Shown: positions 7,514 to 64,000 of the stretch, piece after piece
Position numbering within the stretch: the stretch's first letter is position 1
Layout: each line of letters begins with the position of its first letter
NCBI RefSeq assembly: GCF_000974785.1
Contig: NZ_BBWV01000001.1
Location: forward strand, 310,001 to 374,000
Direction of reading: 5' to 3'
DNA: 64,000 nucleotides
Origin: Flavihumibacter petaseus NBRC 106054
GTDB taxonomy: Bacteria; Bacteroidota; Bacteroidia; Chitinophagales; Chitinophagaceae
The notes under the pieces: model-generated
Told to the model about the DNA's origin: nothing
What the model saw: only the letters and a program-made list of their open reading frames with translations
Databases searched by the model: none
Translations under genes and position numbers: made by a program

Positions 7514-9049
7514 ATGACAGAAAAAATCCTCATTTTAGATTTTGGCTCCCAATATACGCAATTGATCGCCAGGGCTGTGCGTGAGGCGAATGTATATTGT
7601 GAGATTCTTCCCTATTATCAGTCATTTCAATATGAGCCCGGATTAAAAGGCATCATCCTTTCCGGCTCGCCTTTTTCGGTAAATGATCCGAAGGCGCCGG
7701 ACGTCGACATCCGTGCGATGATCGCCAAAGTTCCGGTACTGGGCGTTTGTTATGGGGCACAGCTGACTGCCAAACAATTTGGCGGCCGCGTGGAAAAAAG
7801 TGAGAAACGGGAATACGGCAGGGCGATCATCCAGCTCAAGAAAGAAGATCCGATCCTGCATGGCATGACCAACAGTTCACAGGTCTGGATGAGTCACGGA
7901 GACTCCATCAAAGAGTTGCCCAATGGCTTTGAATTGCTGGCAGATACGGAATCCATCCCGGTCGCTGCTTTCAAAAAAACACCTGGTGACGGCGTATTGT
8001 ACGCCGTGCAGTTTCACCCTGAAGTATATCATTCCATAGAAGGAAAAAAACTACTCAAAAACTTCCTCGTCGATATTTGTGGTTGCAGCCAGGACTGGAC
8101 GCCAGCACATTTCGTGACCGATACCGTTGCTGCCCTTAAAAAGCAGATCGGCGACCGCAAAGTAATCATGGCACTGAGCGGTGGCGTTGACAGCACGGTA
8201 GCGGCAACATTGATCTCCCGCGCTATCGGTGATAATCTTTACGGCATTTTTGTAGACAATGGGGTACTGCGGAAAGGAGAATTTGAGCAGGTACTGAAAA
8301 CCTACAAAGACAACCTGCACCTCAATGTAAAAGGTGTAGATGCAAAAGATGCTTTCTACCGTGAACTGGAAGGCAAAACCGATCCTGAAGCAAAACGGAA
8401 AGTGATCGGCAGGATGTTTATTGAAATATTCCAGGAAGAGGCCCATAAGATCAGCGGCATTGAAATGCTGGGCCAGGGAACCATCTACCCCGATGTAATT
8501 GAAAGTGTTTCTGTTCACGGTCCCTCACAAACGATCAAATCGCACCACAACGTGGGCGGGTTACCGGATACGATGAAAATGTCGCTGGTGGAACCACTTC
8601 GTTTTCTGTTCAAAGATGAAGTGCGGCGTGTTGGCCGCGAACTGGGCATCCCCGATGAACTGCTTGACCGCCATCCCTTCCCCGGGCCAGGTCTGGCCAT
8701 CCGGATCCTCGGAGAAATTACCCCGGAAAAAGTGGCCCTTCTCCAGGAAGCAGATGCCCGTTATATCAACGGTCTGAAGGAACACAATCTTTATAAAACC
8801 GTATGGCAGGCCGGTGCAATCCTCCTGCCGGTGAAAAGTGTGGGCGTGATGGGTGATGAAAGAACCTATGAATTTACCGTAGCCCTGCGTGCCGTTACCT
8901 CGGTAGATGGCATGACAGCGGACTGGGCACATCTTCCCTACGATTTTTTGGCATATATTTCGAATGATATCATCAACAATGTCAGAGGAATCAACCGGGT
9001 AGTGTATGATATAAGCAGTAAGCCTCCGGCAACGATTGAATGGGAATAA
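7514..9049 (+). CDS. guaA: GMP synthase (glutamine-hydrolysing)
   Basis: The protein has 511 residues, full length. The N-terminal class I glutamine amidotransferase has its nucleophile Cys79 in GVCYGAQ and the His/Glu pair in QFHPEVYHS. The ATP-pyrophosphatase domain follows with the PP-loop SGGVDS near residue 221. The C-terminal dimerisation domain ends with the conserved [10 protein letters not shown]. It converts XMP to GMP with ATP and glutamine. A -7 element TACCTTTG (7499-7506) lies 7 bp before the ATG, so the leader is nearly absent; no matching TTTG is visible upstream. Confidence 0.97.
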
Positions 9050-49726: not shown

Positions 49727-50395
49727 TCAATCCGGTTTACCACCAACAACTATCACGATCTCCCCTTTAACAGCTTTCTCACGGTAATGGTCAGCTACTG
49801 TTTGCAAGGTGCCCCGGATTGTCTCTTCAAACATTTTGGTCAGTTCCCTGCTGACGGAGCAGGCGCGTTCGCTGCCGAAGTACTGGGCTAATTCGTCGAG
49901 CGTCTTCACCAGGCGGAGTGGTGACTCATAAAACACCATCGTCCTGGGTTCCGCAGACAATTGCTTTAACAGGGTTTGCCGTCCTTTTTTAGGCGGGAGG
50001 AAACCTTCAAAACAAAACCGGTTGATGGGAAGTCCGCTGTTTACCAGAGCGGGTACAAACGCTGTGGCTCCCGGCAGGCACTCTACGCGAACAGCATTGC
50101 GAATACATTCCCGCACCAGCAAAAAGGCGGGGTCAGAGATTCCCGGCGTGCCGGCATCAGTAAGCACAGCCATAGTTTTTCCTGCCACCAGCTGATCAAC
50201 CAGGTGTTGCAGGATGCGATGTTCGTTGTGCTGATGGTAAGGCGACAGCGGTTTCTGGATGTCAAAATGCGCCAGGAGCCTGGCTGAAGTACGCGTATCT
50301 TCTGCCAGTATCACATCGACACTGCGCAACACTTCGATTGCACGCAATGTCATGTCCTGGAGATTCCCGATTGGTGATGGAACGAGATACAGCAC
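49727..50395 (-). CDS. rsmI: 16S rRNA (cytidine-2'-O)-methyltransferase
   Basis: The protein has 222 residues, starting with GTG at 50395. The tetrapyrrole-methylase fold is marked by LYLVPSPIGNLQDMTLRA, AEDTRTSARLL, LTDAGTPGISDPAF and PGATAFVPALVNSGLP. RsmI methylates the ribose of C1402 in 16S rRNA. It starts 3 bp after the purS stop, so it belongs to the pepP-pssA-purS-rsmI transcript. It is slightly short compared with E. coli RsmI (286), a size common in Bacteroidota. Confidence 0.93.
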   Translation of the reverse strand: MLYLVPSPIGNLQDMTLRAIEVLRSVDVILAEDTRTSARLLAHFDIQKPLSPYHQHNEHRILQHLVDQLVAGKTMAVLTDAGTPGISDPAFLLVRECIRNAVRVECLPGATAFVPALVNSGLPINRFCFEGFLPPKKGRQTLLKQLSAEPRTMVFYESPLRLVKTLDELAQYFGSERACSVSRELTKMFEETIRGTLQTVADHYREKAVKGEIVIVVGGKPD

Positions 50396-50398
50396 TGT

Positions 50399-50644
50399 TT
50401 AGTTCACACTGATTTCGAACTGCTCCATTACCGGGTTGGCAAGCAGTTTTTTGGCAGCCTGTTCAGCAATGGATTTTGCTTCTTCAGCAGTTTGAGCTTC
50501 TACCTGTAAAGTGATATTCTTGCCAATCCTGACATCCTGGATAGATGAAAGGCCGAGATTGCCAAGACCACCCATTACGGCTTTGCCCTGGGGGTCGAGA
50601 AGTTCCTTGAGTGGCATCACTTTTACCTGTACTGAGAAAGTCAT
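50399..50644 (-). CDS. purS: Phosphoribosylformylglycinamidine synthase subunit PurS
   Basis: The protein has 81 residues, typical of PurS, with VQVKVMPLKELLDPQGKAV, GLSSIQDVRIGKNI and AKKLLANPVMEQFEI. PurS bridges PurL and PurQ in the FGAM synthetase complex of purine synthesis. No purQ or purL lies nearby. The ATG overlaps the pssA stop by 4 bp, so translation is coupled to a phospholipid gene, an arrangement with no obvious functional logic. Confidence 0.93.
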   Translation of the reverse strand: MTFSVQVKVMPLKELLDPQGKAVMGGLGNLGLSSIQDVRIGKNITLQVEAQTAEEAKSIAEQAAKKLLANPVMEQFEISVN

Positions 50645-51405
50645 TCTTGGTGCGTTTTAAGGGTCAAAGATAAGACAATGTAGGCTAGGAAAATAACCGG
50701 CATGGCTGCCCATTTCAGGAAAATAAGCGCCAGCAGGGCGATTGCGAGCACAAGGTAACGGGCAAGATTGTTCTTTACACTGTAATCCCTGAACTTAAAC
50801 GCCATCAGCGGTAACTTACTGACCATTAGGAAACTCAACAGGATTATGATAACGTACAGGAACCAGCGGTTCATCAGCAGGTTGATCAGGGTGACGCTTT
50901 CTGTATGCCAATAAATAAGAGGCAGGGATGCGACAACCAACCCAACTGCAGGTACTGGTACACCCTTAAAGCCATAAGACTGGCTCGTATCAATGTTAAA
51001 CCGGGCCAACCGGTAAGCCGCCGCACAGGGAACGAGCACTGCCGGCAATAGCCAGACCACCCCGGTATCCAGTGCATGTGATTCCCGGGCGATACTCAAC
51101 CTGAGGAACTGGTAAAGGATCAATCCCGGCGCCACGCCGAAACTTACAACATCAGCCAGTGAGTCAAGCTGCTTTCCCATCTCGGAACTGGCCTTGAGTA
51201 ACCGTGCCACAAAACCATCCAGGAAATCAATTACCGCAGCAAGGCCGATAAACAGCGCTGCCAGCCAGATGCGTTCAGGAAGATCAAGCAGGTATTCGCC
51301 GTTTGAACCGGTGTTAAAGGCAATACCATTTTGCAGAATCACCACGATGGCCAAGCAGCCGAATACAAGATTCAACAGCGTAAAAATGTTAGGGATTTGT
51401 TTCAT
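50641..51405 (-). CDS. pssA: CDP-diacylglycerol-serine O-phosphatidyltransferase
   Basis: The protein has 254 residues. The CDP-alcohol phosphatidyltransferase motif is DFLDGFVARLLKASSEMGKQLDSLADVVSFG (DGxxAR-x8-G-x3-D-x3-D), with about seven hydrophobic segments. The N-terminus IPNIFTLLNLVFGCLAIV is typical of the PssA type II subgroup. It makes phosphatidylserine, the precursor of phosphatidylethanolamine, in the inner membrane. It lies 7 bp after pepP and overlaps purS. Confidence 0.92.
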   Translation of the reverse strand: MKQIPNIFTLLNLVFGCLAIVVILQNGIAFNTGSNGEYLLDLPERIWLAALFIGLAAVIDFLDGFVARLLKASSEMGKQLDSLADVVSFGVAPGLILYQFLRLSIARESHALDTGVVWLLPAVLVPCAAAYRLARFNIDTSQSYGFKGVPVPAVGLVVASLPLIYWHTESVTLINLLMNRWFLYVIIILLSFLMVSKLPLMAFKFRDYSVKNNLARYLVLAIALLALIFLKWAAMPVIFLAYIVLSLTLKTHQE

Positions 51406-51412
51406 AAGCAGG

Positions 51413-52723
51413 TCAAGATTTTACTTTGGCTTTTTTTGCGTTCATGAATTTCTCAATTTCATCTGCATGTATGGGAATTTTTGCCATCAGGTCTTTGTTG
51501 CCTGTTTTAGTCAGCCAGACATTGTTCTCTATTCTGATGCCCATTTGCTCATTTTCAATATATATACCCGGTTCAACAGTCAGCACCATGCCTGCCTGCA
51601 GCGGTTCCGTACGCGTTCCGAGATCGTGTACATCAATTCCCAGGTGATGACTGATCCCATGATACAGAAATTTCCGGTACGCCGGGTTGTCTTTGTCCTG
51701 GTTTTTGACATCTGATCTGGACAACAGACCAAGTTTGACAAACTCTTTGGTCGCCTCAATGCCGACCTTGTCAGTATAGTCCAACAGTGTAATGCCCGGC
51801 TTAAGGATCGATTTCGCATAATCATGCAACCGGAGACAGGCATCATATACTTCCTTCTGCCGGGGCGTGAACCTGCCATTCACAGGTATCGTTCGCGTCA
51901 GGTCAGCACAGTATCCCCCGTATTCAGCACCAAAATCCATCAGGACCAACTCACCATTTTTACATTCCTGATTATTCTCAATATAGTGAAGTACACGCGC
52001 CCTGTTGCCGCTTGCGATAATGCTGTTATATGCTGGTCTGGTAGCACGGTTCCTGATGAATTCGTGCCAGATCTCCGCCTCGATCTCGTATTCCATTACT
52101 CCCGGCCGTACAAACTGAAGGACCCGTTCAAAGGTCTTCTGCGTGATGTCTATCGCCTGTTGCATCACCGCAATTTCACCCGGAAGTTTAACGGCACGAA
52201 GCAGTTTAAGGATAGGTGCACTGCGGCGATACTGGTGTAACGGATACCGGTGCCGCATCTCGGCGGCAAACCGGTAATCCCGAACAGGTACCTGATTATT
52301 CTTCCGGTCATTTTCATTGGTGTTCAGGTACACTGTTTCAGCGAGATGTATCATCGGCTGTAACAGACCATCAAGGGAATCAAGCCAAACTATTTGCCGT
52401 ATACCCGAAATGTTCATAGCCTCCTCCCGCCGGAGCCGGTGGCCGTCCCATTTCTCTTTCAGTTCATTGGGCCGCGTCAGCACCAGGAATTCTCTGAATC
52501 GCTGGTCTGGGTTACCGGGAAACAACACAAGCATGGAATCTTCCTGTACGATACCAGTAAGCCAGTACAGATCCGAATTCTGCCTGAAAGGATGCAATGC
52601 ATCGCCATTGGAGGGCAATTCATCATTGCTGTTGAAAATAGCGATCGAACCGGGTACCATCTGCTTTACAAACCGATCGCGATTTTTCGTGTAGATCGCA
52701 TTATCGAGCGGGGGGTATTTCAT
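51413..52723 (-). CDS. pepP: Xaa-Pro aminopeptidase (M24)
   Basis: The protein has 436 residues. The N-terminal domain (about 1-175) includes FRQNSDLYWLTGIVQEDSMLVLFPG. The pita-bread catalytic domain has metal ligands in LMDFGAEYGGYCADLTRT (two Asp), HGISHHLGIDVHD (His), VLTVEPGIYIE (Glu) and GIRIENNVWLT (Glu). It releases an N-terminal residue next to proline. It is the first gene of the four-gene minus-strand operon and is transcribed divergently from pckA across a 289-bp region that holds two palindromes. Confidence 0.94.
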   Translation of the reverse strand: MKYPPLDNAIYTKNRDRFVKQMVPGSIAIFNSNDELPSNGDALHPFRQNSDLYWLTGIVQEDSMLVLFPGNPDQRFREFLVLTRPNELKEKWDGHRLRREEAMNISGIRQIVWLDSLDGLLQPMIHLAETVYLNTNENDRKNNQVPVRDYRFAAEMRHRYPLHQYRRSAPILKLLRAVKLPGEIAVMQQAIDITQKTFERVLQFVRPGVMEYEIEAEIWHEFIRNRATRPAYNSIIASGNRARVLHYIENNQECKNGELVLMDFGAEYGGYCADLTRTIPVNGRFTPRQKEVYDACLRLHDYAKSILKPGITLLDYTDKVGIEATKEFVKLGLLSRSDVKNQDKDNPAYRKFLYHGISHHLGIDVHDLGTRTEPLQAGMVLTVEPGIYIENEQMGIRIENNVWLTKTGNKDLMAKIPIHADEIEKFMNAKKAKVKS

Positions 52724-52841
52724 GGAAGCAGTTCAAATTTTCCGGCAAATATTCACTAAACCGGCTGATTATTACCAAAAAGGTTGAAAATCAAAGATGT
52801 TCCTTTCCCACGAGAGCGGCATCAAAATTTAGTTTTTAAGC

Positions 52842-52861
52842 AAACTAACAGTTGTTAGTTT
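52842..52861. promoter_or_regulatory. 20-bp palindrome between pepP and pckA
   Basis: AAACTAACAGTTGTTAGTTT has perfect 8-bp arms around a 4-bp centre. It lies in the divergent region, with no T-run on either side, so an operator is more likely than a terminator. The core TAACAGTT recurs in the second palindrome at 52940-52952. Confidence 0.5.
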
Positions 52862-52939
52862 AGATAATAACAAATTGCTCCGCCGCAGATAAAAAACAAT
52901 TTCAAATAAATATGCCCTGTTATTAGACAGAATCTATAA

Positions 52940-52952
52940 TGTAACAGTTACA
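52940..52952. promoter_or_regulatory. 13-bp palindrome upstream of pckA
   Basis: TGTAACAGTTACA has perfect 6-bp arms around one base. It lies 30 bp upstream of the pckA -7 box TAGATTTG (52982-52989). The TGTAAC/GTTACA arms are reminiscent of CRP/FNR-superfamily sites. The rest of the 289-bp gap (52724-53012) shows no gene. Confidence 0.5.
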
Positions 52953-53012
52953 CATTACTAGGGCAAAGTGTCGTCAACCACTAGATTTGTGAAAATCAAC
53001 GACTGTTTTGTT

Positions 53013-54620
53013 ATGTCAGTACCGAGTTTTCTGATCCCCCTGAAGCAGATGGTAGCAACTGGCCTGAAGCACACTGAAAACGTTCATTATCAAACTCCTC
53101 CGGAAGAACTGGTCCAGCAATCACTGGCTATGGGAGAAGGCGTTCTGAACGATACCGGAGCACTGGTCGTAATGACCGGGAAATTCACCGGCAGGAGCCC
53201 GTTAGACAAATACATTGTACGGGACGAAGTAACCGCAGATACGATAAACTGGAACGAATTCAACCATTCCATTGAGGAAAAGACATTCCTTGCCATCCGG
53301 CAACAGATCAACGACCACCTGGCTTCCTGCCCGGCTATCTGGGTTCGGGATGCCTATGCCTGTGCCGATCCCCGGTATCGGTTGAACATCCGCGTGGTTA
53401 CCGATAAACCATGGTTGAGTCTTTTTGCCTATAACATGTTTCTCCGGCCCACTGAGGAGGAGCTGGACGGTTTTGACCAGGAATGGACCATTCTGGCGGC
53501 GCCTGATCTCCAGCTGGACGCGAAGGCCCTTAACATCAGGCAGTCCAATGCTGCCGTGATTTCCTTCCGCCACAAGACAATTGCCATCGCCGGCACCGGG
53601 TATACCGGAGAGACAAAAAAAGGCATTTTCACGGTGCTGAATTACATCCTGCCCATGAAGCACGATGTATTGAGCATGCATTGCTCCGCCAATAAGGGAG
53701 TTAATGGTGATACTGCACTGTTTTTCGGCCTTAGCGGAACCGGAAAAACAACCCTCAGTGCCGACCCCTCCCGTCAGTTGATCGGTGATGACGAACACGG
53801 CTGGACCGACAACAATGTGTTTAACTTCGAAGGTGGCTGTTATGCAAAGTGTATTAATCTGTCCGCGGACAAAGAACCGGAGATCTATGGCGCCATCCGG
53901 CCCGGTGCATTGGTGGAAAATACCCGGTTCTTGAAAGGCACCAACAAAATTGACTTTGATGACGCTACGATAACTGAAAATACCAGGGTTTCTTATCCGC
54001 TCGATTATATCAGCAATGCAGCTGATCCTTCAGTCGGTGCTATCCCGGATAATATTTTCTTTCTGACCTGTGATGCCTATGGCGTTTTACCACCAATTTC
54101 CAGGTTGACGGCACCACAGGCCATGTATCAATTCATTTCGGGCTATACCGCCAAGGTCGCCGGCACTGAAACGGGTGTAACCTGTCCGAAATCAACATTC
54201 AGCGCATGTTTCGGTGCCCCCTTTCTGCCGTTGCATCCCGGTCGCTATGCAGAAATGCTGGGTCAGCGGCTGATCCGCCACAAGGTAAAAGTGTGGCTGA
54301 TCAATACTGGCTGGACTGGCGGACCCTATGGTACCGGGCACCGCATGAAACTGTCTTTCACCAGGTCAATGATCAAAGCGGCTATTGACGGCAAACTGGA
54401 TGGGGTAGCGTATGAAAAAGATCCGGTATTCGGCATGGCAGTACCGCTTTCCTGTCCGGGCGTTCCGGTTGAATTGCTGCAACCCAGGAATACCTGGGCC
54501 GACTCAGCCGCTTACGATCAGCAGGCCGCCTGCCTGGCTGCTGCGTTCCAGCAAAACTTTAGTAAATACGCTTCAGGTGTCTCAGCAGAAATCCTTGCTG
54601 CCGGGCCCCTGGTTCAATAA
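53013..54620 (+). CDS. pckA: Phosphoenolpyruvate carboxykinase (ATP)
   Basis: The protein has 535 residues from the ATG at 53013. An in-frame upstream extension of 15 residues would run through the -7 box TAGATTTG, so it is rejected. The kinase-1a P-loop is FFGLSGTGKTTLSADP, with metal site LIGDDEHGW, then GCYAKCINLS and GRSPLDKYIV (substrate site). It converts oxaloacetate to phosphoenolpyruvate with ATP, the committing step of gluconeogenesis. Length matches E. coli PckA (540). A strong terminator follows. Confidence 0.96.
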   Translation: MSVPSFLIPLKQMVATGLKHTENVHYQTPPEELVQQSLAMGEGVLNDTGALVVMTGKFTGRSPLDKYIVRDEVTADTINWNEFNHSIEEKTFLAIRQQINDHLASCPAIWVRDAYACADPRYRLNIRVVTDKPWLSLFAYNMFLRPTEEELDGFDQEWTILAAPDLQLDAKALNIRQSNAAVISFRHKTIAIAGTGYTGETKKGIFTVLNYILPMKHDVLSMHCSANKGVNGDTALFFGLSGTGKTTLSADPSRQLIGDDEHGWTDNNVFNFEGGCYAKCINLSADKEPEIYGAIRPGALVENTRFLKGTNKIDFDDATITENTRVSYPLDYISNAADPSVGAIPDNIFFLTCDAYGVLPPISRLTAPQAMYQFISGYTAKVAGTETGVTCPKSTFSACFGAPFLPLHPGRYAEMLGQRLIRHKVKVWLINTGWTGGPYGTGHRMKLSFTRSMIKAAIDGKLDGVAYEKDPVFGMAVPLSCPGVPVELLQPRNTWADSAAYDQQAACLAAAFQQNFSKYASGVSAEILAAGPLVQ

Positions 54621-54648
54621 TTTTTTTCGGTCTCAACGTTGCTTGCAG

Positions 54649-54680
54649 TCCGCCCTGTTCACAGGGCGGAATTTTTTTTA
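54649..54680 (+). terminator. Rho-independent terminator of pckA
   Basis: Stem TCCGCCCTG/CAGGGCGGA (9 pairs) with loop TTCA is followed by a run of eight T. It begins 29 bp after the pckA stop. Confidence 0.88.
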
Positions 54681-54747
54681 AATATTTAGGATTTTTTGTA
54701 ACAAAGACGTGTTTAATAATTTCCATCTTTGCCTTAAAGCGTAACTG

Positions 54748-55350
54748 GTGACAATCGTTCATTTCCTGTTATTGGTCCCGTCCCTTCTGGTTCACCCGGA
54801 TCCTCCCCCACTTCAAACGAATTGTTCGCACGAAAGCGTTATTGCATTTCCCTCATTTAATTCACCTGACGCCGAGAAAATCAACTGGAAAGAAAGAAGA
54901 TTACTGACCTGGACGGATTTCAAAGCTGCCCCCGTTGAATCCGCACCCAATGCCGCGCTGACCAGCACATCCATCCTTTTTGGCTATCACTTTGGTGAAG
55001 GTGGTCTGACCTATACCCTTCAATGTGTATTCTATCCGCACAAATCCTGGACGAAAGTCCGGTCTGAAAGAATACTTTCCCATGAACAGGGGCATTTCGA
55101 CATATCGGAGTTGTTTACCCGAAAACTGCATCAGGCCCTTGCCGCATATAAACCAAGGGAAAATTCACTTGAACCGGACATAAACGCCATTTACCAAAAA
55201 GTCGCCCAGGATCAGGCCGCGTATCAGAAACAGTATGATACGGAAACCAATTATTCCCGCGATCTTGAAGGCCAGTCCAGGTGGTCACAGCGCATCAGGC
55301 TTGAACTGGAACAGTTACAAAAGTTTGCCGGCTATCCCCAACCGCAATAA
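54748..55350 (+). CDS. DUF922 secreted putative zinc protease
   Basis: The protein has 200 residues. The only reasonable start is GTG at 54748, which opens a signal-like segment (MTIVHFLLLVPSLLVHP). The DUF922 body follows (ERRLLTWTDFKAAP) with a zinc-binding HExxH in LSHEQGHFDISELF. A coiled C-terminal helix ends the protein. The family is classed as putative secreted zinc proteases, with no known substrate. Downstream (55351-55899) there is no gene. Confidence 0.8.
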   Translation: MTIVHFLLLVPSLLVHPDPPPLQTNCSHESVIAFPSFNSPDAEKINWKERRLLTWTDFKAAPVESAPNAALTSTSILFGYHFGEGGLTYTLQCVFYPHKSWTKVRSERILSHEQGHFDISELFTRKLHQALAAYKPRENSLEPDINAIYQKVAQDQAAYQKQYDTETNYSRDLEGQSRWSQRIRLELEQLQKFAGYPQPQ

Positions 55351-55430
55351 TCCATTGCCGGAAAGCAGCGTTGTTGATACCCTTTTGCCATTCTTTTGTT
55401 TATCCTTTGGTAACCCGGCGTGTAGCCAGA

Positions 55431-55486
55431 TTTTACCCGGATTCTACCTAGTTTTCATAGGGAAAACGGGTCATTTCCGGGTAAAA
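55431..55486. repeat. Nested inverted repeat in gene-free region
   Basis: Perfect 11-bp arms TTTTACCCGGA (55431-55441) and TCCGGGTAAAA (55476-55486) enclose a second 6-bp inverted pair GTTTTC/GAAAAC (55451-55456 and 55462-55467). A further 9-bp inverted pair (GGTAACCCG about 55409-55417, CGGGTTACC about 55605-55613) lies around it. Together these would fold into a branched hairpin if transcribed. Confidence 0.6.
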
Positions 55487-55717
55487 CCCGGATAACCAAT
55501 GAGGTTCCAAAGGCTTATCAACAGGGTAACATCAGGGTAGATGTAGAAAAAGACTAAAGTTCGTCCATGGAAAACAGAGTTCGTTGCTGTTTCTCCCCCG
55601 GAAACGGGTTACCAGTTATTCCAGTTGCCAAAAACTAAGTATCATTTCAGCAGATGTTCAGCTTTGAGCGAGTATAGCCGTATTAAGCTGGAAAATAGTG
55701 CAGCCCTGGTGTAAACT

Positions 55718-55806
55718 ACCACCGGTCCTACAGCCGACCTGCACCCGTCCCCCGGCAAACCCACCCTTTCGCTGGGGGACCGCTGTAGGTTTGCTGGTGG
55801 TCGGCT
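55718..55806. repeat. Complex GC-rich inverted repeat downstream of the peptide exporter
   Basis: Several inverted pairs are interleaved here. CCTACAGC (55727-55734) pairs with GCTGTAGG (55782-55789), and GTCCCCC (55747-55753) with GGGGGAC (55774-55780), nested one inside the other. AGCCGACC (55732-55739) can alternatively pair with GGTCGGCT (55799-55806), and ACCACC (55718-55723) with GGTGGT (55796-55801). It lies in the 549-bp gene-free stretch 55351-55899. No open frame, T-run or tRNA-like fold is seen, so it is not an obvious terminator. Confidence 0.6.
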
Positions 55807-55899
55807 ATCGGGCGGTTGCTGGATGACCCGGGCAAAACTGATAGTGTTAGTGTGGCTGGCTGATGAAGCAAGTACCCCAGTTTGCCTGCGCAGGAATCG

Positions 55900-58035
55900 T
55901 CAACCCAAAACTGGCCGATCCAAAGCTGCCGTGGATTTTAGGCAGCCGTCTTCCATTGCCAGCACTTCGTCGCAGATCTCCAGCAGGTGGCGGTGATGGG
56001 TGATCAGCAGGATCGTCATCCCCCCGGTACAATAGGCCCTGAGCATATTCAGCATCTCTGTTTCAGCAGTAGCGTCAAGATGCGCAGTGGCTTCGTCCAG
56101 AATCAGTAATAATGGCTCACGGTACAGCGCGCGGGCCAGGTACAACCGTTGCCATTGTCCGGCCGAAAATTGCCCGGAACGTTCCTTCAATTGCGTATTA
56201 TACTGATCAGGCAGACGTGTGACCAGTTCGTCAATACCTGTTTCCTGGCAGACTTTCAACATACGTTCCCAGTCGGGAGAATCATTATGAAGGCAAATAT
56301 TCTCCCAAACCGTACCGGTAATTGCCTGTTGGTCCTGCGACAACCAACAGATTTGTTTGCGAATAGAATACAGACTGAAATTATTAAAACCGAATCCGCC
56401 CGCCGATATGCTTCCGGACTGGGGTTCCAGGTGTCGCTGAAGTAATGCCGCAATGGTGGATTTACCACTCCCGCTGCTGCCCGTTAATGCTATCAGCTTC
56501 CCGGCAGAAATCGTAAAGCTGATATTTTTCAAAGCCATAAACCCATTGGGATAGCGAAAACTGACATCATCAAAGGAAATGCCACCAAAGTAGCGTTTTC
56601 CAAATGTCAAATTGCAACGGTCAGCAATGACTTCAGGTTTTAAAGCTATCATACCAAACAACCGGTCCGCTGCTGCCAGCCCTTCCTGTATCGACCTCCC
56701 TGATGCCAGAATGGTCAGCAGGGCAGAGGAAAAATAACCCAACAATGTATAAAATGAAATCAATTCCCCGGCAGTAAGCTTGTGGTCAATCACTGCGCCG
56801 CCACAATACCACAGCAACGTAACAGTAATACCTTTCATGAAAAACTCCGAAGCCTGGTTCAGAAGACTATTATTGATCACAGACCTTCGCATACCTGCCA
56901 TAAATGTGATCCAATAGTTTTCAAATCTGCTGACCATACCAGGCTCAATTGACATTTTTTTTACCATGGGCATCAACTGTATGGATTCCACAATTGCAGC
57001 CTCAACTTTTGCCGCTGCTTCCAATATCATTCTGAATGCGTTTCGGTTGTACCGATGAATGAGCCAGCATAAGAGTAATAAAACCGGTAATGTAGCGAAT
57101 ACCATCAGCATCAATCGAACATGGTAAAATCCCATAATTGTCATGGTACAGATAGCTATCATCAGCTGAAGCAAAATCCCGACACCGGCATCACTCACCA
57201 ACATTCTGATTTTCATGGCATCTCCAACCCTGCTGCTGATCTCACCACTGCTGTATGCTTCCGTAACAGTAAGCGGCAATCTGAAAAGATGATTGATGTA
57301 AGACATGACCAGCTGATGATCAATTTGTTGCCCTGACAACAATACCAGCATGTCACGTGATATACCTATGAAACCCTGCAGCAACAGTACAGCAATCATT
57401 ATAATGACCATGGTATTCAGCGTATCGGGATTAGCCTGATTGAGCACTTCATCCACAACCTGCTGGAGATAGATAGCCATGGTACAGGTCAGCAGCGAAT
57501 ATAATGCGGCGCCCAGGACCACTTTTACCAATAAACTTTTCTGCCATTGAATCAGCGGCCATAATCTCATTATCACAGATGCCTGACCGGTTTTATTACC
57601 AGGAACCAGAATTGACGGTGAATTTTCCTGCTTTTTAAATACGATTGCAATCCCTGTCCATTGCTTCATGAAATCCCCAACCGGCAACTTCGAATGTTTG
57701 CCGGCAGCGGGATCCATGATTTCAAGGAAATCCGGTGTACACTTCTTCACGCATACATAGTGAAACTGCCCATTCGTGTACCTGATATGTGCAATGATGG
57801 GAATGGAAAACGACGATAGCTGATCATAAGACATCCGGATCGCACTGGCTTCCACGCCAAAGGAAGCCGCGGCCTGTACAAGTCCCCATAGTGACGTACC
57901 GCTTTTATCAGTTCCCGCAGCAATACGGAGTGTCGTCAGTGGCATCCGGAGTCCTAATCTACGCATCACATATGCCAGGCACGCAGGGCCGCAATCTGTG
58001 GCATCCTGCTGCCTGACTGGCTTTGACCACCACAT
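55900..58035 (-). CDS. C39-peptidase-containing ABC exporter (PCAT) for double-glycine peptides
   Basis: The protein has 711 residues from the ATG at 58035, which puts the catalytic cysteine at residue 15, the usual place; an ATG at 58068 is in frame but overlaps the previous gene. The C39 peptidase domain has Cys15 (QQDATDCGPACL), His92 (FHYVCVK) and Asp108 (IMDPAAG). A six-helix membrane domain follows (about 160-450). The ATPase has Walker A GSSGSGKST (near 515), signature FSAGQWQR (near 623) and Walker B LLLILDEAT (near 640). The enzyme cuts leader peptides after Gly-Gly and exports the mature part. It lies one base after the adaptor gene and two genes after a peptide with such a leader. 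Confidence 0.94.
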   Translation of the reverse strand: MWWSKPVRQQDATDCGPACLAYVMRRLGLRMPLTTLRIAAGTDKSGTSLWGLVQAAASFGVEASAIRMSYDQLSSFSIPIIAHIRYTNGQFHYVCVKKCTPDFLEIMDPAAGKHSKLPVGDFMKQWTGIAIVFKKQENSPSILVPGNKTGQASVIMRLWPLIQWQKSLLVKVVLGAALYSLLTCTMAIYLQQVVDEVLNQANPDTLNTMVIIMIAVLLLQGFIGISRDMLVLLSGQQIDHQLVMSYINHLFRLPLTVTEAYSSGEISSRVGDAMKIRMLVSDAGVGILLQLMIAICTMTIMGFYHVRLMLMVFATLPVLLLLCWLIHRYNRNAFRMILEAAAKVEAAIVESIQLMPMVKKMSIEPGMVSRFENYWITFMAGMRRSVINNSLLNQASEFFMKGITVTLLWYCGGAVIDHKLTAGELISFYTLLGYFSSALLTILASGRSIQEGLAAADRLFGMIALKPEVIADRCNLTFGKRYFGGISFDDVSFRYPNGFMALKNISFTISAGKLIALTGSSGSGKSTIAALLQRHLEPQSGSISAGGFGFNNFSLYSIRKQICWLSQDQQAITGTVWENICLHNDSPDWERMLKVCQETGIDELVTRLPDQYNTQLKERSGQFSAGQWQRLYLARALYREPLLLILDEATAHLDATAETEMLNMLRAYCTGGMTILLITHHRHLLEICDEVLAMEDGCLKSTAALDRPVLG

Positions 58036-58036
58036 G

Positions 58037-59149
58037 TCAGATTGATTTGGAAGGTTTAAACCAGTCATCGGGTTTGTCGAATAACACCTGCCAAATTTTT
58101 CGTCGTGCGATCACTATAGTTATTCCAACCGGAATCCCGGCAATCCAGGAAAAACTGAAACCATTCGGGAGCGTGAACGAATGCGGCGGAAGCCGGCAGA
58201 CAATCCGTCGGCACGCCATGCCATTTTTATCTATCGATACAGGGTCAACCTGAATCACCCTGGCGTCAACCGAATTGAAATGATGACTGTAAGCAGCAGC
58301 CAACCGGATTCTCGCCGGCATGTTACCATGTATTATCGCCATCTGGATTCCGGAAACAAATCCTTCCACAACAAGGCTATCACCAAAAATGATCCGGCAC
58401 AACGGTTCCCCTTTCTGCACAAACATACCCGGCATCGCAGCAGCCATCAGCTGAATATTTCCCGCCCCCGGCGCTTTGGCCAGCTTTTCTTTTTGCTCCC
58501 ATTCAGCACCGTTACGCAACACTTGTTTTGACCGGTTTTCTGCCTGATATGCTTCAATACGTTCCTGCCATTGTTTTTGTGCAGAATAGCGGTATTGCTG
58601 TAGCCGGAGCGCAGCAGCAGTCTGCGTTGCCAATTTCTCTTCCCATTCCGACGCCGGTATGATGTGTTCCTGGAAAAGCGGTCTGTTCCGCATTATTTCA
58701 AGATCCGCTTTGCCGAGGTCATGTAGCAGCAGTTTTTCATCAGCCAAAAACTGTTGCCAGATTATTTTGCCATTATCTGTTTTCAATTGTAAAGAATCGT
58801 TGTTGCGGTGTGACAGCCAGGCGATCAACCCGGCCAGTTCAGTTGCCATTGCTGCACGCAATGTTTCTTCATGGAGCAACTGATGATATCGTACAAGGTT
58901 AACTTCGTCCCGCATGGAAAAGATGGCCTGACCTTTCTTCACTGCCGATCCATCCTGAACATAGATGGTATCAATAGAACCGGATTCACGTGCGTAGAGC
59001 ACAACTGATTCCCGTGAAGGTGTTACCCGACCGGCAGCCTGCACAACAACATCTGCATTGAGGAAGAAAATCAAAAGGCAAACAACTCCTGTGAGCAACA
59101 ACGTTATGCAATAGATCCAGTTCATCCAGGCTGGCAGTGTTTGTTTCAT
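58037..59149 (-). CDS. HlyD-type adaptor of the peptide exporter
   Basis: The protein has 370 residues from the ATG at 59149. One N-terminal membrane helix (WIYCITLLLTGVVCLLIFFLN) precedes the barrel-sandwich half VVLYARESGSIDTIYVQDGSAVKKGQAIFSM. A long helical hairpin region (about 90-240) follows, then the second half (MPGMFVQKGEPLCRIIFGDSLVV). It links the ABC exporter to an outer-membrane channel. No TolC gene is next to it; the TolC protein encoded at 31890 could serve. The stop lies one base before the exporter ATG. Confidence 0.88.
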   Translation of the reverse strand: MKQTLPAWMNWIYCITLLLTGVVCLLIFFLNADVVVQAAGRVTPSRESVVLYARESGSIDTIYVQDGSAVKKGQAIFSMRDEVNLVRYHQLLHEETLRAAMATELAGLIAWLSHRNNDSLQLKTDNGKIIWQQFLADEKLLLHDLGKADLEIMRNRPLFQEHIIPASEWEEKLATQTAAALRLQQYRYSAQKQWQERIEAYQAENRSKQVLRNGAEWEQKEKLAKAPGAGNIQLMAAAMPGMFVQKGEPLCRIIFGDSLVVEGFVSGIQMAIIHGNMPARIRLAAAYSHHFNSVDARVIQVDPVSIDKNGMACRRIVCRLPPHSFTLPNGFSFSWIAGIPVGITIVIARRKIWQVLFDKPDDWFKPSKSI

Positions 59150-59157
59150 GGCAATTG

Positions 59158-59181
59158 AAAAGAGGCCGGTTGCCCGGCCTC
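59158..59181 (-). terminator. Hairpin with short T-run between precursor and adaptor genes
   Basis: On the minus strand a perfect 8-bp stem GAGGCCGG/CCGGCCTC (59181-59174 with 59169-59162) is followed by four T. It begins 4 bp after the precursor stop codon and ends just before the adaptor ATG at 59149. The short T-run suggests a leaky terminator or an mRNA-stabilising 3' stem. Confidence 0.65.
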
Positions 59182-59184
59182 CTG

Positions 59185-59367
59185 CTACTTTTTGGCAATA
59201 GATGACTGTGTATCGGAAACCATTTTTCCCAGTTCCCACAAGCTTTGCAGTGCTTTAGCACCTAACTGTGCCAGTTCTCCCGCCAATGTACCTTCACCTG
59301 CTGATCCGCCACTGATGCGGGTCATCTCTTCGATGGAAAGCGTTTCCATCGCTTCATGGTTTTTCAT
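59185..59367 (-). CDS. Double-glycine-leader secreted peptide precursor (bacteriocin- or pheromone-like)
   Basis: A 60-residue precursor. Residues 1-21 form a classic double-glycine leader, with METLSIEEMTRISGG matching the LSxEEhxxhxGG pattern cut by C39 peptidases. The predicted mature peptide is residues 22-60: 39 residues, no cysteine, small residues and Gly/Ala spaced through an amphipathic stretch (LAQLGAKALQSLWELGKMV), ending in two Lys. No modification enzyme is adjacent, so an unmodified class II-like bacteriocin or a signalling peptide is most likely. The adaptor and C39 exporter genes follow on the same strand. No immunity gene is apparent. A second Met at residue 7 could also start a 15-residue leader. 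Confidence 0.82.
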   Translation of the reverse strand: MKNHEAMETLSIEEMTRISGGSAGEGTLAGELAQLGAKALQSLWELGKMVSDTQSSIAKK

Positions 59368-59384
59368 GCTAACGATTTTTCTGT

Positions 59385-59421
59385 GATTGTTTTATTTGTT
59401 AACCGGGAACAAATTACAATC
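59385..59421. promoter_or_regulatory. Palindrome upstream of the peptide precursor gene
   Basis: ATTTGTT (59394-59400) and AACAAAT (59408-59414) are perfect 7-bp arms around AACCGGG. An outer pair GATTGT (59385-59390) and ACAATC (59416-59421) extends it asymmetrically. It lies 17 bp upstream of the precursor start codon. There is no T-run, so a regulator-binding site or 5' leader structure is more likely than a terminator of the kinase gene. Confidence 0.5.
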
Positions 59422-59456
59422 ACCCAATCGCGTATACCAGCGTGTTTTGACGGGAA

Positions 59457-60092
59457 TTAAAAGAGGCCAAATAACTGGGCATCTACCTTGCTGATGATCT
59501 CTCCCAGGTCTTCTTCTTTTTCGGCAAATTTGTTCTTGTCGACATCAATCACCAACAGTGGTCCTTCCTGGTAGGCACCGATCCACTTCGCATAAAAATC
59601 GTTCAGCCGTTTGAGGTAATCAAGGCGAATATTTTCTTCGTATTCGCGCCCGCGCTTCTGAATCTGCCCGACGAGTGTCGGTACGGACGCCTGGAGGTAA
59701 ATTAAAAGGTCCGGAGGTTGGACCATGGATTTGAGCGTCTGAAAAAACAGGAAATAGTTGTCGAAATCGCGTTTGCTCATCAACTGCATTTCATGCAGAT
59801 TGGGTGCAAAAATATGGGCGTCTTCGTATATCGTTCTGTCCTGGATAACAGTTTCGGTACCACGATGAATATCAAGTATCTGATTGATTCTGCTATTCAG
59901 AAAAAATATCTGGAGATTAAAACTCCAGCGGGGCATGTCTTCGTAAAAATCATTCAGGTAAGGATTGTGATCAACATCTTCAAATTGTGGAATCCACTTA
60001 TAATGTTTGCTGAGCATTTCTGTGAGGGTAGTTTTACCTGCACCGATATTGCCAGCAATCGCGATATGTTTTGGTTTTTTGCCCTTTGCCAT
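59457..60092 (-). CDS. Deoxynucleoside kinase
   Basis: The protein has 211 residues. P-loop GNIGAGKT is at residues 14-21, with the DRT motif of the family in VIQDRTIYED and the lid-region RGREYEENI. The dCK/dGK/dNK family phosphorylates deoxynucleosides for salvage. Which nucleoside is preferred cannot be told from sequence. It lies 41 bp after trpS on the same strand and precedes the peptide-export genes. Confidence 0.9.
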   Translation of the reverse strand: MAKGKKPKHIAIAGNIGAGKTTLTEMLSKHYKWIPQFEDVDHNPYLNDFYEDMPRWSFNLQIFFLNSRINQILDIHRGTETVIQDRTIYEDAHIFAPNLHEMQLMSKRDFDNYFLFFQTLKSMVQPPDLLIYLQASVPTLVGQIQKRGREYEENIRLDYLKRLNDFYAKWIGAYQEGPLLVIDVDKNKFAEKEEDLGEIISKVDAQLFGLF

Positions 60093-60133
60093 AAGTTATA
60101 ACCTGCCGGGTGGCCAGCTTCAAGATAATTAAA

Positions 60134-61141
60134 TTAATAGTATTTCAGCCCCATTGCCTCCCGTACTTTTTCAAGCGTGGCCTGTGCGCTCTTTCTTGCT
60201 TTTTCAGCACCCATTTCCATCACCTCGCGCAGGTATTTTTCATCCTGCCGGATGGCTTCCGCTTTTTCGCGGATGGGTGCGATAAAAGTTACCATATCTT
60301 CCCCCAGCTGTTTTTTCATATCACCATACCGGATAGCGGCATCGTTGTAGTTCTTTTCAAATTGAGCAAGGGTATCCGGTTGGCTGACCAGCTGCATCAG
60401 CGCAAACAGGTTTTCAATATAGTCAGGCTTGGGGGTTCCCGGTTCGGTCGGACCAGCATCCGTTTTGGCTTTTTTTATTTTGTTACGGATCAGGTCGTCG
60501 GTATCTGCCAGGTAGATGGTCGCATTCTGATTTTCACTTTTGCTCATTTTGCCTGCTCCGTCAAGGCTGGGCACCTTTACCAGCTGCTCACCGAAATTGA
60601 AAGCATAGGGCTCCGGAAATACTTCGCCATAGCGGTGATTGAAGCGGTTGGCGAAATTACGCGTCATCTCCAGGTGCTGCTCCTGGTCTTTTCCTACAGG
60701 AACGTACGCGGCACGTTGCAACAGGATGTCAGCTGCCATCAGCACCGGGTAGGTGAGCAATCCGGCATTGATGTTTTCCGGATGCTGGCGTGCTTTATCC
60801 TTAAAGGTGGTCGTTTTCTCCAGTTCACCTTTGTAGGCCAGCATATTCAGGTAGAGGTAAAGTTCAGCCGTTTCCGGGATATGGCTCTGGCAATAAAGGG
60901 CCACTTTATGCGGGTCAAGACCACAGGCGATATTTTCGGCCAGAACCCGGTGAACGTTGGCCTTCAGTTCGCTGGTGTCGGGGTGGGTCGTGAGCGTATG
61001 CAGGTCTGCCACCATAAAATAACAGTCATAATCTTCCTGCATCCTGACGTAATTCTGCATGGCGCCAAAATAATTCCCCAGGTGGAGCATTCCGGTACTG
61101 CGGATACCGCTCATTACTATCCCTTTTTTTCCTTTTTCCAT
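60134..61141 (-). CDS. trpS: Tryptophan-tRNA ligase
   Basis: The protein has 335 residues, full length. The class I HIGH motif is HLGN (residues 20-23) and the KMSKS loop is near residue 199 (GAGKMSKSENQN). GLLTYPVLMAADILL and VPVGKDQEQHLEMTRNFANRFN are diagnostic of TrpRS. It charges tRNA-Trp. It is divergent from gatC with 40 bp between the starts. A long open frame antisense to it has no recognisable domain. Confidence 0.96.
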   Translation of the reverse strand: MEKGKKGIVMSGIRSTGMLHLGNYFGAMQNYVRMQEDYDCYFMVADLHTLTTHPDTSELKANVHRVLAENIACGLDPHKVALYCQSHIPETAELYLYLNMLAYKGELEKTTTFKDKARQHPENINAGLLTYPVLMAADILLQRAAYVPVGKDQEQHLEMTRNFANRFNHRYGEVFPEPYAFNFGEQLVKVPSLDGAGKMSKSENQNATIYLADTDDLIRNKIKKAKTDAGPTEPGTPKPDYIENLFALMQLVSQPDTLAQFEKNYNDAAIRYGDMKKQLGEDMVTFIAPIREKAEAIRQDEKYLREVMEMGAEKARKSAQATLEKVREAMGLKYY

Positions 61142-61181
61142 AGCGCGGCGAAGATAAGAACCTTATTTTTGTTGATAGCAT

Positions 61182-61472
61182 ATGGAAGTAACCAAAGAAC
61201 TTATCACACATCTCGCCGGGCTTGCCAGGTTAGAGTTCAATGAAGAGGATACCCGGCAGATTCAGGATGATCTGACCAGGATGATCAGTTTTGTGGAGAA
61301 GCTGAACCAGCTGGACACTTCAGGTGTTCAACCGTTACTTCACATGACCGATCAGACCGATGTACTGAGGGCGGACAGGCTGGAACCTTCGCTGGAAAGG
61401 AAAACTGCTTTGGAGCTGGCCCCGGACGCCGACGATCAATACTTCTATGTGCCAAAAGTGATCAAAAAATAA
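61182..61472 (+). CDS. gatC: Asp/Glu-tRNA amidotransferase subunit C
   Basis: The protein has 96 residues with the GatC pattern: [39 protein letters not shown] and [16 protein letters not shown]. GatC wraps GatA and GatB in the transamidation of mischarged Glu-tRNA(Gln) or Asp-tRNA(Asn). gatA and gatB are not in this window. A -7-like box TATTTTTG (61164-61171) lies 10 bp upstream. The ABC ATPase gene follows after 1 bp. Confidence 0.92.
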
Positions 61473-61473
61473 T

Positions 61474-62214
61474 ATGAGTCACCCGATCATCCATTTAAGC
61501 GCCATCCAAAAGAGTTATTATATGGGTAAACAGGCAATTCCTGTACTCAAGGGAATTACGCTTGATATCCATAAAAACGAATACGTGGCCCTGATGGGTC
61601 CTTCGGGCTCCGGCAAAAGCACCCTGATGAATATTCTGGGCTGCCTGGATTCACCAACCGCCGGAAAATATGTGCTCAATGGGCAGGATGTCAGTAAGAT
61701 GGATGATGACAGCCTCGCCGATGTGCGCAATAAAGAAATCGGATTTGTTTTCCAGCAGTTCAACCTGTTGCCGCGTCTTACCGCTGCAGAGAACGTTGCA
61801 CTTCCGCTGGTATATGCGGGACTGGCTAAGAAAACGCGCCATGAAATGGCCCTGGCGGTGCTGGAAAAGGTAGGGCTGGCGGAAAGAAGCCATCACAAAC
61901 CGAATGAACTCAGCGGTGGACAGTGCCAGCGGGTGGCAATCGCCCGGGCTTTGGTGAACAACCCTTCCCTGATCCTTGCCGATGAACCAACGGGAAACCT
62001 TGACACCAAGACTTCCATAGAGATCATGGACATCTTCGGAAAGATCCAGTCCGCCGGAAATACAGTTGTGCTGGTGACCCACGAGGAAGATATCGCCAAT
62101 CATGCACACCGCATCGTCCGGCTCCGTGATGGTCTTATTGAAACTGACCGCAGAAACGAACATCCAGCCAAATCTGCTCTACATGGCGTTGAAAATATAT
62201 ACGAGAACGGGTGA
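61474..62214 (+). CDS. MacB/LolD-type ABC ATPase
   Basis: The protein has 246 residues. Walker A is GPSGSGKST, the Q-loop [15 protein letters not shown], the signature LSGGQCQR (with Cys where Gln is usual), Walker [13 protein letters not shown] and the H-loop LVTHEEDI. The MacB/LolD/FtsE subfamily drives transporters with FtsX-type permeases. No permease gene adjoins it, although one is encoded at 37654. Its 3' end overlaps the adenosyltransferase gene by 32 bp. Confidence 0.9.
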
Positions 62215-62749
62215 TGCCGGTCACACCTCCCTGATCGGCGGTACAAAAGTGCCCAAAAGCCACCTTCGGATTGACACCTACGGAACTGTCGATGAACTGA
62301 ACTCCCATATCGGGTTCTGTGCAGACCAGTTAAAGGATCATGAGTCAGTATTGCGCCTGAAAGAAATCCAGGACCGGCTCTTTACTATCGGCGCTTCCCT
62401 GGCTACAGATCCGGAAAAAGAACCGCTGATGCGCATGCCGGATCTGCTACAATCTGATGTTGACCAGCTTGAAAAGTGGATTGATCAGATGAATGAAGTA
62501 TTGCCACCGATGAAATTCTTCATTCTTCCGGGTGGACATATGGCAATCTCCTCCCTGCATATAAGCCGGTGTGTGTGCCGGAGAGCTGAACGGCTTTGCG
62601 TTGCACTTCAGGACGGAGAGCATTTTATTGACCCGCTCGTCATCAAGTACATCAACAGGCTGAGTGATTACCTTTTCGTTCTCGCCAGGTATTCCGGCCA
62701 TCTGTTGGGTGTAGCGGAAATTCCCTGGAAACCAAGGGTGAAACAATAG
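62183..62749 (+). CDS. Cob(I)alamin adenosyltransferase, PduO type
   Basis: The protein has 188 residues from the ATG at 62183, giving [20 protein letters not shown], the family's ATP-binding N-terminus. [37 protein letters not shown] and [13 protein letters not shown] follow. It transfers adenosyl from ATP to cobalamin to make coenzyme B12 for enzymes such as methylmalonyl-CoA mutase. A longer frame back to 62102 lies inside the ATPase gene and is not supported. No other cobalamin gene is nearby, so salvage is more likely than synthesis. Confidence 0.93.
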
Positions 62750-62756
62750 CAGGGGG

Positions 62757-63413
62757 TCAGACGTCTGTCATTCTTCCGTCTTTCATGTGCAACACCCGGT
62801 CGCTCATCTTGGCCAGTTCTTCATTATGGGTCACAATGAGAAAAGTCTGGTTAAAATCAGCCCGCAGCCGGAAAAACAAATCATGCAAATCACGGGCATT
62901 GGCCGAATCAAGGTTACCTGTAGGCTCATCTGCGAATATGATACGTGGTTCGTTGATCAGTGCCCTGGCCACCGCCACCCGCTGCTGCTCACCTCCGGAG
63001 AGCGCCTGCGGCTTATGTTCTGCCCGTTCTGCCAGACCCAGGTGCCCCAGCAACTCCCTGCCACGCTGTTCCACCGCCTCCTTTGGCTTGCCCGCGATCC
63101 AACCGGGTATGCAGACATTTTCCAGGGCAGTAAATTCAGGCAACAGGTGATGGAATTGAAAGACGAACCCGATATACCGGTTCCGGAAAAAGGCAAGCTG
63201 CCTGTCCGTCATCCCGGTTATTTCCGTCTTGTTAAGCCCTATCTGCCCGGCATCCGCCTTATCCAGCGTCCCAAGTATGTGCAACAGGGTGCTTTTCCCC
63301 GCGCCTGAGGATCCCACAATACTTACGATTTCTCCTTCCTTCACTTCAATATCCACTCCTTTCAGTACCTCCAGTGAACCGTATTTCTTTTTTATCCCTT
63401 TTGCCTGCAACAT
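62757..63413 (-). CDS. lolD: Lipoprotein-releasing ABC ATPase
   Basis: The protein has 218 residues. Walker A is GSSGAGKST, then the Q-loop [19 protein letters not shown], a LolD-typical segment. The signature is LSGGEQQR, Walker [13 protein letters not shown] and the H-loop LIVTHNEEL. LolD powers the LolCE complex that releases lipoproteins from the inner membrane. LolC/E are not in the window. It is convergent with the adenosyltransferase gene, with 7 bp between stops. Confidence 0.9.
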
Positions 63414-63444
63414 GGCGCAATATTAAGCGTTGTAGGTGAAAGGA

Positions 63445-63475
63445 TTTGGAAATTTCGTTTTAACACCTACATTTG
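63445..63475 (+). promoter_or_regulatory. DUF2795 gene promoter, full Bacteroidota consensus
   Basis: TTTG (63445-63448) and TACATTTG (63468-63475) are exactly 19 bp apart, a perfect match to TTTG-N19-TAnnTTTG. The start codon is 23 bp downstream. Confidence 0.72.
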
Positions 63476-63498
63476 CCGGAAATTTAAACCCAGTACAG

Positions 63499-63720
63499 AT
63501 GTTTTGGACGCTAGAATTGGCTTCTTACCTGGAAGACGCTCCTTGGCCCGCCACCAAAGACGAGCTGATCGATTACGCAATCAGGAGCGGAGCGCCTATT
63601 GAGGTGGTTGAAAACCTGCAGGAACTGGAAGATGAAGGTGAAATCTATGAGGGGATCGACGACATCTGGCCAGACTATCCTTCCCAGGAAGACTTCTTTT
63701 TCAATGAAGACGAATATTAG
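63499..63720 (+). CDS. DUF2795-domain small acidic protein
   Basis: The protein has 73 residues from the ATG at 63499. The N-terminal part (MFWTLELASYLEDAPWPATKDELIDYAIRSGAPIEVVENLQEL) matches the small DUF2795 fold, a helical domain of unknown role. The C-terminal tail is very acidic and aromatic (IYEGIDDIWPDYPSQEDFFFNEDEY), a feature common in Bacteroidota members. It has its own promoter and terminator, so it is a single-gene unit. A longer frame from 63436 would include the promoter and is rejected. Confidence 0.85.
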   Translation: MFWTLELASYLEDAPWPATKDELIDYAIRSGAPIEVVENLQELEDEGEIYEGIDDIWPDYPSQEDFFFNEDEY

Positions 63721-63728
63721 TATGAAAT

Positions 63729-63756
63729 AAAAAAATCCCGCAGTGCGGGATTTTTT
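63729..63756. terminator. Bidirectional terminator between DUF2795 gene and fabI
   Basis: A perfect 11-bp stem (63731-63741 with 63745-63755, loop AGT) has an A-run on one side and a T-run on the other. It serves the plus-strand DUF2795 gene and the convergent fabI gene. Confidence 0.88.
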
Positions 63757-63782
63757 GTTAGCGCTATAGCGAAGCTTGCCGT

Positions 63783-64000
63783 TTATTCCACGCCAAGCTT
63801 GGTCATCACTTCCATACTTACGCCCGTGCTGGAATAACCACCATCGTGGAAAAGATTCTGCATCGTCACCATTTTGGTAAGATCTGAGAACAACGTAATA
63901 CAGTAATTCGCACAGTCTTCCGCTGTGGCGTTTCCGAGCGGGGCAATAGCATTCGCATAGTCGAAGAAATCACCAAAGCCCTTGATACCGGTCCCGGCAG
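63783..64000 (-). CDS. fabI: Enoyl-[acyl-carrier-protein] reductase (NADH), C-terminal part
   Basis: The right edge cuts this gene; 71 complete codons before the stop (TAA at 63785-63783) are visible on the minus strand. The segment reads GIKGFGDFFDYANAIAPLG, then TMQNLFHDGGYSSTGVS. This is the C-terminal segment of Bacteroidota FabI, with the substrate-binding loop and the final GG turn of the short-chain dehydrogenase fold. FabI reduces trans-2-enoyl-ACP in the last step of each fatty-acid elongation cycle. Catalytic residues lie outside the window. Confidence 0.88.
   Translation of the reverse strand, partial: AGTGIKGFGDFFDYANAIAPLGNATAEDCANYCITLFSDLTKMVTMQNLFHDGGYSSTGVSMEVMTKLGVE

Follow-up and report, generated by a model that had tools for sequence, protein, structure and literature searches.

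What would a Flavihumibacter secrete through a double-glycine (GG) peptide exporter that has no immunity gene beside it? The question is raised by three genes at positions 55,900 to 59,367 of the window, that is, the whole 64,000-nucleotide stretch of the Flavihumibacter petaseus NBRC 106054 genome analysed here (contig NZ_BBWV01000001.1, positions 310,001 to 374,000). An earlier note on this DNA had described them as a 60-codon peptide gene, a HlyD-type adaptor and a C39-peptidase ABC exporter, and had proposed that either immunity is encoded elsewhere or the peptide is a signal. By comparing the locus with related genomes, we propose with moderate confidence another answer, namely that these genes form a functional export cassette of the class II bacteriocin-like kind, which derives by reduction from a two-peptide system resembling class IIb.

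First, we found the three genes where they had been placed, all on the minus strand. The precursor gene (60 aa, 59185..59367), of the type that we call pepB, was delimited from the list of open reading frames (ORFs), relatives and a profile, while the adaptor (370 aa from an ATG start, 58037..59149) and the exporter (722 aa from its first ATG, 55900..58068) come from the ORF list and Pfam. The peptide stop is separated from the adaptor ATG by 35 nt (the GTG adaptor start of the ORF list would overlap the peptide gene), and adaptor and exporter overlap or abut according to the exporter start used, the alternative Met12 being just past the adaptor stop. The adaptor is above the Pfam cut-offs of both HlyD_D23 and HlyD_3, and the exporter matches Peptidase_C39 (E 3.9e-32), ABC_membrane (2.2e-33) and ABC_tran (1.1e-28). 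Pfam and alignments place its C39 peptidase domain at residues 16-148 (57625..58023) and its ATPase core at residues 513-662 (56083..56532). The exporter unites the C39 Cys-His-Asp triad, a transmembrane domain (TMD) and a nucleotide-binding domain in a single chain, as expected of a peptidase-containing ABC transporter; residues 18-711 align with PCAT1 (4ry2, E 2.8e-98), and ComA could be aligned too. The catalytic triad is intact, as the earlier note had said, although its numbering (Cys15/His92/Asp108) fits a count from Met12; from the first ATG the residues are Cys26/His103/Asp119, which match PCAT1 and the relatives. Walker A (GSSGSGKST), Walker B (LLILDEAT), Q-loop and H-loop residues are retained, the H-loop His just beyond the core. 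The window exporter thus resembles PCAT1 and ComA in domain order, triad and ATPase motifs, whereas its signature reads SAGQ and its TMD is strongly diverged (mean identity 32% to 14 relatives). It is the sole C39 match in its own genome. No modification gene is present at the locus and no outer-membrane channel gene is linked to it; the genome has 41 matches to the channel family PF02321. A hairpin 3' of the exporter gene was considered and rejected (z 0.01).

Second, we asked how far the small gene can be trusted. Its leader, residues 1-21 (59305..59367), ends in GG and has L at -12, E at -8, M at -7 and I at -4, so that the hydrophobic and acidic positions of GG leaders are all occupied next to a linked C39 exporter; TIGR01847 (bacteriocin_sig) gives it 15.5 bits for a cut-off of 15.7. 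The motif by itself is weak evidence because the pattern occurs in 1 of the 439 window ORFs of 35-120 aa versus a mean of 0.53 in 30 random windows generated from a first-order Markov model. A whole-genome search matched the peptide to one from the same genus with identical gene order (44% identity over 50 residues, E 1.8e-5), and a hold-out profile, built from 10 relatives with the window peptide excluded, matched it with E 2.1e-10, the runner-up among 960 window ORFs being at 1.8. Judged from these comparisons, the dedicated GG-peptide export unit is real. The predicted mature peptide (59188..59304) has 39 residues, no cysteine, a net charge of 0, an average mass of 3975.48 and a monoisotopic mass of 3973.08. 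AlphaFold2 placed a helix at residues 28-58 of the precursor with low confidence (mean predicted local distance difference test score 63), and we judged a fold search unwarranted because the model was too weak. Amphipathicity is significant for the window peptide (p 0.003), and at p<0.05 in 5 of 11 family members but not in the other 6. The Pfam model Bacteriocin_IIc weakly matches six of eight members (E<=1), the window peptide not being among the matches displayed, and bacteriocin_sig weakly matches four of the eight. The mature part is covered by no curated family among the Pfam and NCBIfam models, and we found no description of this peptide family in the open-licence literature; a mining study has reported class II candidates in Bacteroidota in general, as far as its available text goes (PMC12648078).

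We searched with profiles through 394 genomes of the family Chitinophagaceae and 396 of the order. Strong matches were confined to three genera, with weaker ones, mostly to the leader half, elsewhere too. This gave 14 cassettes with a family pepB, eight in Flavihumibacter, five in genus g87 (G396, G216, G664, G619, G612) and one in g66 (G146), both of the latter genera belonging to the same family. Each of the 14 full-length pepB genes found has an adaptor gene and a C39 exporter gene as neighbours. The earlier note had held that a frame not conserved in exporter-keeping relatives would speak against the peptide; it proved conserved, yet some relatives, e.g. G108, pair a related exporter with other GG peptides. 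From this gene order the 39-residue cysteine-free peptide is well supported as the predicted cargo, as had been claimed. A common order in the family is pepA - pepB - CPBP/Abi - adaptor - exporter, where pepA is a second GG peptide gene; class IIb operons, that of plantaricin EF for example, are arranged as pepA - pepB - Abi/CPBP. An upstream pepA is present in 10 of the 14 (G272, G179, G231, G294, G300, G396, G146, G664, G619, G612), that of G272 with a leader ending in GA and a short core, and was not found in the cassettes of the window, G295, G297 and G216. A CPBP/Abi gene stands exactly between pepB and adaptor in nine of the 14, and the six CPBP proteins scanned, three of them from pepB cassettes, were all above the PF02517 cut-off. 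Thus the absence of a visible immunity gene holds for the window and not for most cassettes of its family. In the close trio G231, G294 and G300, the ratio of nonsynonymous to synonymous substitution rates is 0.27-0.28 for pepB (two pairs; the third has a synonymous rate of 0), 0.08-0.23 for pepA and 0.06-0.14 for CPBP, and on these values the three genes are under purifying selection. We infer that CPBP is the immunity protein of the family; the Abi proteins SkkI, PlnI and PlnL are described, in the available part of PMC8538875, as protecting against sakacin 23K and plantaricins EF and JK.

We then located the cassette in 15 Flavihumibacter genomes, that of the window included. In five (window, G272, G179, G295 and G297) it lies between a DUF922 gene (54748..55350, plus strand, in the window) and what we take to be a deoxynucleoside-kinase-like gene (59457..60092, minus strand); DUF922 was identified by domain search, and the flank names kinase, trpS and pckA are our presumption. 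The kinase gene, our anchor, shows 91-97% identity across the other 14 genomes, including a partial one. The two flanking genes are adjacent and the site empty in 7/15, and the remaining three have other genes at the site or a rearranged area. G231, G294 and G300 carry their cassette at another place. Among 80 kinase loci from named records, pepB and an exporter were near the kinase in two, L165 of F. solisilvae and L170 of F. profundi, both without CPBP. A broken remnant occurs elsewhere in G008 (L153, about 6575-7681), with a pepB C-terminal end beside a truncated exporter. G664, of the other genus, has a full pepA-pepB-CPBP cassette within its kinase-pckA interval (L258, 3590-13180), about 2.7 kb away from the kinase and separated from it by other ORFs; therefore the interval has held the full form, by descent or by independent insertion.

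All five genus members at the kinase site, the window included, lack CPBP, whereas nine of the 14 cassettes have it, so the missing immunity gene is lineage-specific. Around the window peptide, 89 bp upstream and 35 bp downstream are too little for a second peptide, and a pepA-profile search of its own genome gave a best E of 0.37. This genome has four PF02517 matches, none at the cassette locus, and tblastn with five CPBP proteins against six stretches between pepB and adaptor gave nothing better than E about 0.05 as a CPBP remnant. In G272, a 1.1-kb stretch without clear gene (L071, 8780-9895) occupies the place of CPBP in other cassettes. We therefore do not file the window cassette as a class IIb bacteriocin, because it encodes one GG peptide instead of two adjacent ones and no linked immunity protein. 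Its relatives share with the plantaricin EF/JK type the two adjacent GG-leader peptides and CPBP, followed by adaptor and C39 exporter; they differ by a Gram-negative host and a HlyD/TolC-type route, and the mature part falls outside curated families. With class II microcins the window shares a GG peptide linked to a C39 exporter and a HlyD adaptor (the membrane fusion protein), no modification gene and no linked outer-membrane channel, but it lacks their linked immunity gene, and no microcin family was among the weak model matches. Bacteroidetocins, according to the available text of PMC6671954, are likewise from Bacteroidota and have a GG leader, a C39 exporter and no immunity gene. That text gives them at least two cysteines, a transmembrane protein, mostly a thiol oxidoreductase, leaders 15-16 aa long and a region of four genes that lacks HlyD, whereas the window peptide has no cysteine and a 21-aa leader, HlyD is present, and neither a transmembrane protein nor a thiol oxidoreductase gene was seen by eye among the ORFs of the three-gene cassette.

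Could the peptide be a secreted signal, the exporter delivering, without partner and CPBP, a pheromone to the producer's own population? GG peptides serve as signals elsewhere, the window encodes a single neutral amphipathic peptide with no immunity or modification gene at its locus, and one of eight relatives' peptides weakly matches ComC models (E 0.00016 in NCBIfam, 0.0034 in Pfam). We nevertheless consider this rather unlikely. The ORF list for 50000-64000, read by eye, showed no gene for a sensor kinase, a response regulator or a receptor, DUF922 being the one flank that was domain-searched, and pepA and CPBP in relatives suit bacteriocins better. The absence of an immunity gene is by itself no argument for a signal because bacteroidetocins lack immunity proteins too, their producers inhibiting themselves according to the portion of PMC6671954 available. 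The choice between immunity elsewhere and a signal was thus too narrow, since these antibacterial peptides follow neither course.

A second alternative is that selection on the cassette has relaxed and left a relic, in which pepA and CPBP were lost and exporter and adaptor are drifting. Divergence speaks for it. The window exporter has 32-36% identity to 18 family exporters (23% to one outlier), whereas the three from its own site in G272, G179 and G295 resemble one another at 53-65%; the window adaptor has 20-25% identity to 12 relatives, versus 42-51% among those three. Both are much more diverged than the flanking genes. Taking a tree of six flanking proteins for comparison, end branches of exporter versus flanks, rough values owing to saturation, were 4.1 (5.4 without G297) versus 0.24 for the window, 2.24 versus 0.16 for G297, 0.75 versus 0.11 for G179, 0.47 versus 0.13 for G272 and 0.28 versus 0.13 for G295. 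By these sequences the window copy is the most diverged among the cassettes found; selection on it may be relaxed or diversifying. The empty sites in the genus and the remnant in G008 suit a relic too. On the other side, the frames and motifs are intact, which argues against a dead gene; columns invariant in 14 relatives are kept at 28/33 in the C39 domain, 51/80 in the TMD and 38/55 in the ATPase, and an unconstrained 722-codon frame is not expected to stay open across such divergence. We thus regard a relic as improbable. Fast change is not tied to reduction alone, since G612, which keeps pepA and CPBP, has an exporter branch of 1.44. A first contig scan with the window exporter as query returned no relative, and no closer donor emerged from 395 phylum genomes at E<=1e-110, the 29 matches in 28 other genomes all being at 32-36%. 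In the exporter tree the window falls in the same-site group when G297 is included (99/100 with 20 rows; 94/100, not starred, with 22 rows), and, once G297 is removed, joins the branch that separates this group from all other exporters; the orthology claim rests on gene position because long branches meet in this tree. Finally, it is highly improbable that the target of the peptide is the producer itself or the biofilm it forms, although GG peptides are reported to have a role in autolysis in Neisseria gonorrhoeae (PMC11798529) and in the biofilm of Synechococcus (PMC4997328). That the window has no immunity gene would fit, whereas no sequence link to those peptides was found (none was sought) and CPBP in relatives suggests self-protection.

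We therefore return to the reduced bacteriocin cassette. The window would encode a working type I secretion cassette devoted to a single small peptide that is not modified, and would probably act in the way of class II bacteriocin or microcin exporters. The leader would be recognized by the C39 domain and cut after Gly-Gly, and the core would leave through the exporter, the HlyD-type adaptor and a TolC-type outer-membrane channel encoded at another locus. The likeliest product is a membrane-active, helical antibacterial peptide without linked immunity protein. The family would be a class IIb-like bacteriocin system of which the window, seemingly a pared-down and fast-changing form, retains pepB, adaptor and exporter only. 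The sequence shows the genes with their motifs, family and order and the lack of pepA and CPBP at the locus, and from it we infer that the peptide is secreted, where it is cut, that it is antibacterial and that genes were lost here and not gained in the relatives. As a tentative and rather doubtful extension, the cassette at one site may have been stripped stepwise, from pepA, pepB and CPBP to pepA and pepB (G272, G179) and then to pepB alone (G295, G297, window), leaving a lone peptide with its exporter, self-protection and partner lost, the cassette repurposed, and exporter and adaptor co-diverging exceptionally fast; the rather long exporter branch of G612, whose cassette is not reduced in this way, makes this less likely.

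Several observations weigh against the reduced cassette. The window lacks the partner peptide and CPBP, the very features that make its relatives bacteriocin-like; its mature peptide is uncharged overall, and of the C-terminal YQ.SLP.NLKK that the family conserves, a part is missing. The motif GxxxG, typical of class IIb, favours the reading in pepA, where it occurs in 9 of 11 mature sequences (2.6 on average after shuffling; these sequences are homologous), but in pepB the count of 4/14 was reached by 87 of 500 shuffles and is not an enrichment. Also in favour, CPBP lies near 14 of 24 C39 exporter loci with pepA or pepB versus 1 of 45 without (69 loci, Fisher 1.6e-7), but this value is indicative only because some of the counted loci had served to train the profiles for CPBP, pepA and pepB, 32 of the 69 were selected partly for pepB-profile matches, and the loci are related. 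Left out of the 69 were L154 (no exporter found), the window, L153 (the broken remnant), L156 (no exporter sought), L262 (a repeat of L144), L075, L288, L293 and the short loci L011-L040; L075, a second G179 exporter, gave no CPBP, pepA or pepB in the scan. The G664 exporter groups with G396 and G146, not with the same-site clade of the window, and the shared interval may be coincidence, replacement or a shared insertion spot. Relaxed selection may act on the window exporter and adaptor. Last, SilX, a CAAX protease in a Streptococcus anginosus bacteriocin locus, affects signal processing and not immunity, as described in the accessible part of PMC9298176.

Other loci showed further arrangements. 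In another family of the class, a pepA-like peptide and CPBP occur with a different, B-like second peptide, in L283 (9457-10907, with two CPBP genes) and L275 (10484-11364). A conserved 30-aa hydrophobic ORF stands between pepB and CPBP in G231, G294 and G300 (L074 9276-9368, L062 3106-3198, L065 839-931). In G355 (L261, 8018-9007), a transposase-like ORF, IS30-like by eye, lies between CPBP and a shortened adaptor. G108 and G239 have GG-leader peptides beside a C39 exporter (L073 8948-9435 and 10472-10959; L158 9780-10013) whose core opens with a stretch of hydrophobic residues and then has a lipobox-like GC or LAGC site, with repeated pairs in G108. Arrays of Cys-containing GG-leader peptides surround C39 exporters in L150 and L152 (G198, G040), and L145, L147, L148 and L149 (G214, G226, G002, G259) each have two or three GG peptides of 56-99 aa, rich in Gly and Leu, whose genes converge with adaptor-exporter pairs.

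By the bacteroidetocin precedent, as far as the available text of PMC6671954 carries it, the lack of an immunity gene is, on our analysis, no anomaly within the phylum. If our proposal is true, Chitinophagaceae would carry class IIb-like two-peptide bacteriocins with Abi-type immunity and Gram-negative type I export. The series from full to stripped cassettes would then let nature itself test which purposes partner peptide and CPBP gene serve, and would also bear on whether a killing peptide changes its role after the loss of its immunity gene.

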